From NCBI GenBank assembly GCA_001513155.1, contig LFSR01000032.1, positions 62,001 through 126,000 of the forward strand: a stretch of 64,000 bases of DNA, read 5' to 3'. Numbering within the stretch: the stretch's first letter is position 1; each line of letters begins with the position of its first letter. The notes below the pieces were generated by a model. The model was not told the DNA's origin. It did not search any database and saw nothing but the letters and a program-made list of their open reading frames with translations. The translations under genes were made by a program, and so were the position numbers. Source of the stretch: Syntrophomonas sp. DTU018 (GTDB taxonomy: Bacteria > Bacillota > Syntrophomonadia > Syntrophomonadales > Syntrophomonadaceae). Below, one piece after another: positions 24,180 through 31,165 of the stretch.

Positions 24180-24208
24180 TTTACAAGAGCCTGGCACCAT
24201 GCTATTAT
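24180..24208 (+). promoter_or_regulatory. Sigma-A promoter of the aroF-pheA leader
   Basis: TTTACA (24180-24185), 17-base spacer, TATTAT (24203-24208). Transcription would start near 24215, just ahead of the T-box Stem I. Confidence 0.65.
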
Positions 24209-24215
24209 ATGTGCT

Positions 24216-24514
24216 AACCACAACATCTAAAATGTTATAACCATCAAATGCTGTGAACAAGTAAAGTAGAAGTGGGGAACTATTCAGAGAGGAGACGCCG
24301 GCGGCTGAAAGCGTCTCTATAGGGAAACACTTTGAAGTTCACTTGGGAGCACCCGGCTGAAACCATCGGGCAAGTAGGCTAGGGCGGAAACTTCCACCGT
24401 TAAAAGGAAGGGGATATCGGATCAACCTGTATCCTTTTTGAGCGGGCCTACAGGCAACATGGGTGGTACCGCGGGAAGTCAGCTTCTCGTCCCATAGGGG
24501 ATGAGAAGTTTTTT
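24216..24514 (+). promoter_or_regulatory. T-box riboswitch, phenylalanine-type, complete
   Basis: T-box leaders bind uncharged tRNA and switch between antiterminator and terminator. Seen: a Stem I region with AGAGAGG and GAAGTTCACTTGGGAGC, whose specifier loop gives TTC (24338-24340), a Phe codon. The T-box core GGGTGGTACCGCGGG is at 24461-24475, and a terminator CTTCTCGTCCC/GGGGATGAGAAG (24483-24493/24497-24508) is followed by six T. A Phe specifier suits aroF-pheA. Confidence 0.92.
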
Positions 24515-24630
24515 GTTATAAAAACAGGATGATCCCGTATCCTTAAAAGAGCGGGCAATTAATGCCAATCAGGGTGGTACCGCGGGAAGTTAACAGCCTC
24601 TCGTCCCTTCCAGGGATGAGAGGTTTTTTA
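24515..24630 (+). promoter_or_regulatory. Second T-box antiterminator/terminator module without Stem I
   Basis: A second T-box core GGGTGGTACCGCGGG lies at 24572-24586 and a second terminator CCTCTCGTCCC/GGGATGAGAGG at 24597-24607/24613-24623 is followed by TTTTTT. The bases before it (GTATCCTTAAAAGAGCGGGC) resemble the matching part of the first module (GTATCCTTTTTGAGCGGGC). It looks like a partial duplication lacking Stem I and a specifier. Confidence 0.85.
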
Positions 24631-24651
24631 TTCTAATGGAGGTGAAGCATA

Positions 24652-25494
24652 ATGAAAGGACTGAAAATAAAGCTAGCTGATGATATGCTGGTTTTGCGCC
24701 AGGCTAACCAGCCCGCCACTGTTATCAATGTAAAAGGCTGTCCTATTGGCGGGGACTCAATAGTGGTGGTGGCTGGGCCATGTGCTATAGAAAATGAGGA
24801 GATTTTAAAGGAGACCGCTTTCAAAGTACGGGGATCGGGAGCGGTTATGCTGCGGGGCGGGGCCTATAAGCCCCGGACTTCTCCCTACAGCTTCCAAGGT
24901 CTGGGAGAGGAAGGATTGCGGATCCTGGCCCGCATCGGCGAGGAAATGAATATGCCGGTGGTAACAGAAGTAATGGACACTGCTGACATAGAACTGGTGA
25001 GCCAGTATGCGGATATCCTGCAGGTAGGAGCCCGCAATATGCAAAACTTCTCCCTGCTGAAAAAACTAGGCCAGATAAATAAACCAATCATCCTCAAGCG
25101 GGGGTTGGCAGCTACCATTGAAGAATGGCTGTGGGCGGCCGAATACATCCTAGCGGGAGGCAACTCCCAGGTGATACTGTGTGAACGGGGCATAAGGACT
25201 TCTGAGCCCTGGACCCGGAACACCCTGGATTTATCTGCGGTAGCCCTGGTCAAAGAGCTGACCCACTTGCCGGTACTGGTGGATCCTAGCCATGCCACCG
25301 GCATACGCAGTCTGGTAACCCCTATGGCCCGGGCAGCTATTGCTGCAGGAGCCGACGGCATTATGGTGGAGGTGCATCCCCATCCGGAAAGAGCTTTGTC
25401 GGACGGGGACCAGTCCCTGACACCTAAGGGTTTCAGCCAGCTAATGAAGGAAATAGAGCCCATTGCCCGAGCGGTGGGAAGGAGAGTTTACTAA
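24652..25494 (+). CDS. aroF: 3-deoxy-7-phosphoheptulonate synthase (type I-beta)
   Basis: First enzyme of the shikimate pathway, condensing phosphoenolpyruvate and erythrose-4-phosphate. Visible: [61 protein letters not shown] and MVEVHPHPE (metal and substrate ligands). Only ~26 residues precede the barrel, less than the ~60-residue ferredoxin-like regulatory domain of Thermotoga-type enzymes, so allosteric control by that domain is probably absent. ATG 24652 follows GGAGGTG. Controlled by the upstream T-boxes and joined to pheA by TAATG. Confidence 0.94.
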
Positions 25495-26321
25495 TGAGTT
25501 TGGGTATCTTGGGACCGCCGGGTACTTTCAGTGAAACAGCCGCCATCGCTTATGGCTGGCCTAAGGAGGAACTGGTGTATGCTGATTCCATTCTGTCCCT
25601 TTTCCATAATCTGTGCCAGGGGGAAGTAACAGATATTCTGGTTCCTTTTGAGAACTCAGCAGCGGGTATACTAAGGAATAGCCTACTGGGTTTAACCCAG
25701 TTTCCGGTAATGATCAAGGGAGAAGTCACTGTCCCTGTAAAACAGTGCCTTATGGGGGCTCATCCCTATGATCCTGCCGAAATAGAAGTGGTGGTGACCC
25801 AGCCCGCTGTACTGGCCCAGTGTGAAAATTACCTGCGCCGGAATTTGCCCGGGGTGCGCATCGAAATAACAGAAAGCACTGCCCGGGCTGCTCAGATGGC
25901 AGCGGCTGATTTGCGCAAAGCAGCCGCTATCGGTCCGGAACAGGCGGCGGAAAACTATGGATTAGTTGTCATAGCCAGGGATATTCAGCAGGAAAACAAC
26001 TGCACCCGTTTTTTTCACCTGAGTCAAGCTGCCAAACTGCCAGGCAATGCTGGCAATAAAAGCAGCATCATATTTGAACTTGATGATCGTCCGGGTGCCC
26101 TGTATAAAGCTTTAGAAGTTTTCGCCCTTCAACAGCTGAACTTGACCAAAATTGAGTCTTTTCCTGTAAGAAGGAAAGCTGGGTACCGGTTCTATGTGGA
26201 GGTGGATCTGCCCATCAATCAACTGCCAGTGACAGATCTGCTGGCTGAATTGGAATCCCGCTGCACGGCGGTCTTATATCTGGGCAGCTATTACCGTTGC
26301 AGGGAGGTTATTGCTTGTTAA
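25494..26321 (+). CDS. pheA: Prephenate dehydratase
   Basis: Makes phenylpyruvate from prephenate for phenylalanine synthesis. 275 aa: catalytic domain with GILGPPGTFSE at the start, VPFENSAAG, and the essential NNCTRFFHL (TRF) motif near residue 175. The C-terminal ACT domain begins IIFELDDRPGALYKAL and includes KIESFPVRR, in place of the usual ESRP, which binds Phe for feedback inhibition. No chorismate mutase domain is fused. Its ATG overlaps the aroF stop and it shares the T-box leader. Confidence 0.94.
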   Translation: MSLGILGPPGTFSETAAIAYGWPKEELVYADSILSLFHNLCQGEVTDILVPFENSAAGILRNSLLGLTQFPVMIKGEVTVPVKQCLMGAHPYDPAEIEVVVTQPAVLAQCENYLRRNLPGVRIEITESTARAAQMAAADLRKAAAIGPEQAAENYGLVVIARDIQQENNCTRFFHLSQAAKLPGNAGNKSSIIFELDDRPGALYKALEVFALQQLNLTKIESFPVRRKAGYRFYVEVDLPINQLPVTDLLAELESRCTAVLYLGSYYRCREVIAC

Positions 26322-30959: not shown

Positions 30960-31165
30960 AGCAATAGTCAATTGTGTCAGGAAATCCCTGCTGTGTGCGT
31001 GTAAATGCCGTAAGTTTTTGCCAACACCAAAAACGAGGGAATTCGGCTCCATGTGTGGACTGTATGCCTGGCTTGACCGGGACACAGAAAGCATGTGGGA
31101 GAATACCCACCTGACGAGAACAGGTTTAAACTACGGCTACCACGGCTCGGTGGGGTTTTTTTATT
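30960..31165 (+). ncRNA. ssrS: 6S RNA
   Basis: 6S RNA mimics an open promoter and sequesters sigma-A RNA polymerase. Seen: a closing stem GCCGTAAGTTT (31007-31017) with AAACTACGGC (31128-31137). A central bubble has TTGCCAACACCAAAAACGA on the 5' side and a small ACCTG/CAGGT hairpin on the 3' side. The terminal stem pairs GGGAATTCGGCTCCATGTG with CATGTGGGAGAATACCC imperfectly. A CCAC/GTGG hairpin and seven T end it near 31161. Size (about 180-205) and the position between aspS and tcdA, as for bsrA in Bacillus subtilis, agree. Exact ends are estimates. Confidence 0.82.

Follow-up and report, generated by a model that had tools for sequence, protein, structure and literature searches.

Partially tandem T-boxes are a named class of T-box riboswitches, the mode of action of which is given as unknown in a 2020 review (PMC7583486, section 18). 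According to the same review, the RRRxG-Stem III-AA element together with the antiterminator constitutes the discriminator, which is necessary and sufficient to sense aminoacylation. More generally, in the available text of PMC12452182 and PMC9481103, tandem riboswitches are either whole units or sets of several aptamers that share a platform; an aptamer shared by two platforms is not described there. A full-text literature search on T-boxes, strand displacement and tandem arrangement yielded nothing beyond a general review. In fully tandem T-boxes, as presented in the available parts of PMC12452182 and PMC9413887, the sensor and regulatory domains are repeated, so that two tRNAs can be read. 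An earlier note on the DNA analyzed here had stated that most tandem T-boxes duplicate the whole leader, in agreement with this part of PMC12452182.

We analyzed a stretch of 64,000 nt from Syntrophomonas sp. DTU018 (contig LFSR01000032.1, positions 62,001 to 126,000), referred to below as the window. At 24244-24632, aroF (DAHP synthase) and pheA are preceded by a T-box leader with a Phe specifier (UUC). This leader has one Stem I/II but two discriminator-plus-terminator units and thus is, by its anatomy, a member of the partially tandem class. The architecture itself, checked against PMC7583486 only, is already known; what we propose here, for a subset of the class, is a specific mechanism with covariation support. 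With the transcriptional T-box (RF00230) the leader shares Stem I with the specifier, Stem II with the pseudoknot, the Stem III purine string, the antiterminator/terminator and the Phe pathway target, but it differs in carrying two discriminator/terminator units per Stem I/II and a linker hairpin that separates the pseudoknot from Stem III and has a competing second 3' arm. It resembles fully tandem T-boxes, as far as they are covered in PMC12452182 and PMC9413887, in its serial terminators and in the sharper response to be expected of them. However, it does not belong to them, because its unit 2 comes without a Stem I and the leader offers a single anticodon-binding site. The pseudo-cooperative tandem riboswitches in the available text of PMC9481103 likewise combine one ligand with two checkpoints, but their aptamers are independent, whereas in this leader one bound ligand would be read twice. 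The features of the locus, in window coordinates, are as follows.

24180..24208, + strand: promoter-like site TTTACA-17-TATTAT, -10 hexamer preceded by TG, start predicted near 24216 (consensus scan only)
24244..24352, + strand: Stem I, the sole domain for codon recognition; AGUA/GAA in the specifier loop, AGAGA / UGAAA as distal motifs (RF00230 alignment)
24338..24340, + strand: specifier codon UUC (Phe), from its place in the specifier loop and tRNA-Phe(GAA) in the genome
24352..24411, + strand: Stem II and Stem IIA/B pseudoknot, F-box CCGUUA (RF00230 alignment; pseudoknot CUUCC/GGAAG from sequence)
24412..24422, + strand: linker helix, shared 5' arm GGAUAUCGGAU, near-invariant in orthologues, pairs with both 3' arms
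24426..24434, + strand: linker helix, 3' arm 1 CCUGUAUCC, local hairpin with 24412-24420
24440..24495, + strand: discriminator 1 with purine string GAGCG, Stem III, AA, bulge UGGUACC (24464-24470) and antiterminator helices A1/A2 (RF00230; RRRxG-Stem III-AA motif of PMC7583486)
24481..24515, + strand: terminator 1 including U-tract (terminator prediction)
24533..24542, + strand: 3' arm 2 UCCCGUAUCC, complements the shared 5' arm; together with upstream ACAGGAUGA it extends across the unit-1 hairpin loop (complementarity tests)
24549..24608, + strand: discriminator 2 with GAGCG (24549-24553), Stem III (24554-24566), AA, bulge UGGUACC (24575-24581) and antiterminator helices (RF00230 positions 153-216; bulge invariant in 17 orthologues)
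24595..24630, + strand: terminator 2 including U-tract (terminator prediction)
24652..25494, + strand: aroF-type DAHP synthase, 280 aa, first regulated gene (ORF; product from sequence and family knowledge)
25494..26321, + strand: pheA, prephenate dehydratase, second regulated gene (ORF; product from sequence and family knowledge)

The genes after pheA are presumably a HemZ-like gene, hisS and aspS, named from sequence as members of established families. Immediately downstream of aspS, at 30982-31160 of the window, lies a 6S RNA (RF00013, 96.8 bits).

The full-length RF00230 match extends over 24244-24497 and scores 107.4 bits against a cut-off of 93. A second, truncated match at 24543-24608, obtained with a relaxed threshold in a search of the same genome, corresponds to model positions 153-216 (30.9 bits, E 4.5e-5 for the genome). 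Together with two intrinsic terminators (24481-24510 and 24595-24625) and the UUC specifier, these matches bear out the earlier note, which had described two T-box modules in series behind one Phe specifier; the chance expectation for two cores at such a spacing in the window is 0.00. The second module lacks Stem I, as had also been claimed: its match begins only at model position 153, and the first U-tract is followed by purine string 2 after only ~30 nt, which leaves no place for one. A consensus scan of the + strand put the predicted start near 24216, the first position given in the earlier note, and found no promoter-like site between the units. The specifier at 24338-24340 is preceded by GAA-G and followed by A, which identifies it as Phe. 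This fits the pathway downstream, aroF-pheA, of which a Phe T-box is the expected regulator. The genome encodes a tRNA-Phe(GAA) whose 3' end, ACCA, complements the UGGU of both T-box bulges.

The second module had been described as a repeat of the T-box core and terminator. Both are indeed present, but the description understated the unit, which is complete, with purine string, Stem III, T-box bulge, antiterminator and terminator. GAGCG-Stem III-AA, that is, an RRRxG...AA-flanked Stem III, occurs in both units (24440-24457 and 24549-24568), and in each unit the antiterminator and the terminator are mutually exclusive. Because this element plus the antiterminator equals the discriminator of PMC7583486, unit 2 is, judged by its sequence, a complete charging sensor without an anticodon reader of its own. 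RNA polymerase would thus have to pass two serial tRNA-dependent switches that use one codon-recognition domain, a view of the earlier note that the sequence supports; that unit 2 responds to tRNA is what we infer from it.

The two-unit layout is conserved. Upstream of aroF, two exact cores GGGUGGUACCGCG, 102-152 nt apart, are present in 17/17 closest orthologues, which come from 15 genomes of the window's family (12 genera) and two of a second family. Five aroF loci of a third family (f2) share the layout with a degenerate unit 1 and a canonical unit 2: the first core is altered (GGUAUAGCG, GGUUGCGCG) and the Stem III of unit 1 is lost, so that the strict exact-core pattern reads this family as single-core. 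When the 17 second units were aligned, neither the T-box bulge nor strand CCUCUCGUCCC of the antiterminator/terminator showed any variation, and among the 35 distinct loci of the window's group the bulge UGGUACC is found in all 35 second units and in 26 first units. The idea that unit 2 is a functionless, decaying remnant of a full T-box duplication, although suggested by the absence of Stem I and Stem II from it, appears scarcely credible given these invariant strands, the retention of unit 2 in three families and the fact that in some loci it is unit 1 that decays. The comparison of leaders in relatives that the earlier note had called for hence speaks for conservation across three families of the order and against strain-specific decay.

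Beyond aroF, the pattern of two close cores was found in 34/63 genomes of the order and in 37/399 genomes sampled from the phylum, whereas the reversed control pattern gave none; in a viral collection no such close core pair was detected. Among the matches listed, close tandem cores occur in Lactiplantibacillus, Lentilactobacillus, Secundilactobacillus, Alicyclobacillus, Desulfosporosinus and Pelotomaculum; a few of the listed matches, from GC-rich genomes, are apparently fortuitous. The genes downstream of tandem leaders, identified by eye from sequence, include aroF, a sodium-symporter-type gene, trpE, serC and amino-acid ABC permeases. Since it is kept across orthologues, families and the phylum sample, the two-unit layout is, as far as can be read from sequence, neither local nor decaying.

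Several further observations concern these leaders. In two sets of partially tandem loci (L029-L032 and L034; L050-L052), the first bulge is degenerate (UGGUAUA, UGGUAUU, UGGUUGC) and the second canonical, so that they represent natural unit-1 mutants of use for probing unit 2 alone. In the third family, a partially tandem T-box with a Phe specifier (L044) is located upstream of a HemZ-like gene (coproporphyrinogen dehydrogenase family), and in the window the HemZ-like gene comes after pheA. At four loci (L014, L021, L024, L031) the Rfam match is far longer than usual or extends to the second core. The model is thus able to link the lone Stem I with discriminator 2, in which case database annotation would hide the tandem structure.

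The fourth base of the T-box sequence, N of UGGN, pairs with the discriminator base of the tRNA, and an identical N in the two units is expected if one tRNA is read by both. It is identical in 76/84 non-redundant tandem loci; after shuffling, the mean agreement was 57.6 and the maximum 66 (5000 shuffles).

The linker that tethers unit 1 to Stem I/II contains, between the pseudoknot and Stem III, the hairpin GGAUAUCGG-AUCAA-CCUGUAUCC. In unit 2 the 5' arm of this hairpin is gone and the 3' arm UCCCGUAUCC is kept directly ahead of the purine string, where it can pair with the sole 5' arm of the leader. The 5' arm can pair with arm 1 or with arm 2 but not with both at once, and either pairing is nested rather than knotted. 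At many loci, arm 2 extends into the complement of the apical loop, an extension that arm 1 does not have; in L219, for example, GGGUAUCGGAAUAGUU is matched with AACUAUUCCCGUAUCC. The T-boxes of lactobacillus His leaders are unrelated in sequence, yet their linker 2, too, complements the 5' arm and loop (GGAGUUUAGUGAUAA pairs with UUAUCACUAAACUCC in L108, UAGAGUUUAGUAUUUA with UAAAUACUGAACUCUA in L097). In L079, a non-homologous arm AUUGCACCGAU forms 10 of 11 pairs with AUCGGAGCAAU.

Against dinucleotide shuffles, the complementarity of linker 1 and linker 2 was significant (p<=0.05) in 44/84 non-redundant loci, and the lowest reachable p value (0.0099) was obtained in 26/84; the combined p value was 4e-32. 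For the 50 loci with a UAUCGG-type arm, 77% of the cells between the 5' arm and arm 2 were paired, compared with at most 48% after sliding by 1-3 columns, and 113 cells were changed on both sides, compared with at most 71 when slid, all of these loci being related sequences. One column that is either A-U or G-C was matched in 48/50 loci, with G-U in the remaining two, and this change probably reflects few events. In the same 50 loci, complementarity between the loop and linker 2 was 0.64 within a locus and 0.52 after swapping partners (z 5.7, at register 0). The signal was weaker one base off and near zero at shifts of 2-4, and z remained at 2.2-4.7 after collapse to 10-37 lineage groups. Single T-boxes with the same hairpin had the arm motif downstream of the terminator in 0/25 cases and reached p<=0.05 in 1/25, and we regard this comparison as the most important control for the proposed pairing; the pattern for the hairpin matched in 49/250 genomes, tandem loci included. 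The hairpin itself, GUAUCGG...CCCGUAC with a conserved C-C mismatch, is widespread between the pseudoknot and Stem III in T-boxes of the phylum (L227-L256).

When gapped duplexes were predicted in wide windows and compared with dinucleotide shuffles, the mean z was -0.5 over 135 loci, because terminator remnants dominated the predicted duplexes; narrow windows, partner swaps and register slides were used in its place. A local hairpin in linker 2, which is possible in some loci (L015, L024 and L026, of the ACAGG..CCUGU type), was rejected as the cause of arm-2 conservation, as it covers only part of the conserved strand and does not occur in all loci. About half of the tandem loci show no significant complementarity, and by eye the serC leaders of Desulfosporosinus have no such arm. 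Strand exchange would therefore not be universal, and the loci without complementarity must presumably work otherwise or via simple tethering.

These results bear on two further explanations. The two units might be serial independent switches, unit 2 sensing the Stem I-bound tRNA through tethering and the linker complementarity being a by-product of duplication. Such independence would agree with the complete discriminator 2, the matching UGGN and the several tandem loci in which no arm-2 complementarity is detectable. Indeed, arm 2 may have begun as a copy of arm 1, and the core complementarity would then be partly inherited; the loop extension, the lactobacillus class and L079 are the only lines of evidence free of this objection. 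However, complementarity to the apical loop is locus-specific and not derivable from copying arm 1, and lactobacilli show the same layout with unrelated sequence, so that we consider independent switches rather unlikely. Alternatively, unit 2 could, with no codon being read, capture free uncharged tRNA by its end and sense the total uncharged tRNA with a given discriminator base, a possibility raised in the earlier note. The lack of a separate Stem I in unit 2 would suit this idea, as would the sufficiency of the discriminator for sensing aminoacylation (PMC7583486). Yet free capture needs no linker strand matched to the unit-1 helix, and the strand that pairs with the 5' arm tethering unit 1 to Stem I/II is conserved and covaries. 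Moreover, the affinity for tRNA without Stem I should be low. Free capture is thus highly improbable, and the sequence evidence points to re-use of the tRNA held by Stem I.

We consider it fairly likely that the leader is a partially tandem T-box in which strand exchange leads to a second test of the same bound tRNA; strand exchange fits better than the two readings offered earlier, steeper control and free tRNA-end sensing, of which the former would be compatible with it. An uncharged tRNA-Phe on the specifier would pair its ACCA end with discriminator 1 and terminator 1 would be antiterminated. Once linker 2 has been transcribed, 24533-24542 would displace arm 1 from the shared 5' arm (24412-24422), with the apical loop as a toehold for the invading arm 2. 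Unit 1 would be looped out, discriminator 2 would come to the same place with respect to Stem I/II and to the bound tRNA, and the tRNA end would be read again ahead of terminator 2. The sequences suggest that a swap of pairing partners within the RNA could in this way put the second test site in the position of the first: the two units have similar arm-to-purine-string distances (means of 6.0 and 5.2 nt, n=34), and because of this similarity discriminator 2 would land where discriminator 1 had been. Read-through would then require two positive readings from one tRNA. The two readings would multiply both escape probabilities, the second check would be delayed by ~110 nt of transcription, and less leak and a sharper response would be expected.

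Computed folding energies, all obtained without tRNA or kinetics, are consistent with such an exchange. The exchange duplex was stronger than the local hairpin in 44/44 loci, and when 24404-24570 is folded freely, the exchanged form has the minimum energy (-62.7 versus -57.8 kcal/mol); with antiterminator 1 held, the exchange is favoured by a small margin of 1.4 kcal/mol (-50.3 versus -48.9). It is also conceivable that the helix between linker 1 and linker 2 mainly dismantles the used unit 1, a reset that frees the tRNA end, or that the modules are alternatives, one of which is being lost. The degenerate unit-1 bulges (UGGUAUA/UGGUAUU) in the third family and in one genus (g3), and the missing first Stem III of the former, would be in line with this proposal. 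However, both units are intact in the window and in most orthologues, and a reset would be part of the hand-off and not an alternative to it; we regard this explanation as improbable.

Another T-box leader of the same genome, on contig C2 outside the window, has an unusual organization. In this leuS leader (specifier CUC, Leu; L009/L257, positions 1501-1770 of L009), a tRNA-Ala(GGC) gene with CCA lies inside the Stem III loop. Similar leuS leaders are present in many genomes of three families of the order (L258-L263, L265-L267, L269-L273, L275, L277-L280; in L277 an N gap interrupts the tRNA). A full-text literature search found nothing on a tRNA gene within a leuS T-box leader. Excision of the tRNA-Ala would cut the leader between the specifier and the antiterminator.

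For the partially tandem T-boxes, the shared 5' arm and the two competing 3' arms make the open question of their mode of action (PMC7583486) testable with a few compensatory mutations. The evidence tips slightly in favor of a general RNA device, in which a nascent strand would invade the linker helix via the apical loop and pass a sensor with its bound ligand on from the first to the second expression platform, so that one tRNA is proofread twice; it would have evolved, or been re-encoded, in Clostridia (Phe, Trp) and in lactobacilli (His), which use unrelated sequences for it. If this is true, riboswitches can re-use one ligand-bound aptamer in successive decisions, which amounts to proofreading, and the rule could be used to find more cases and to design low-leak leaders.
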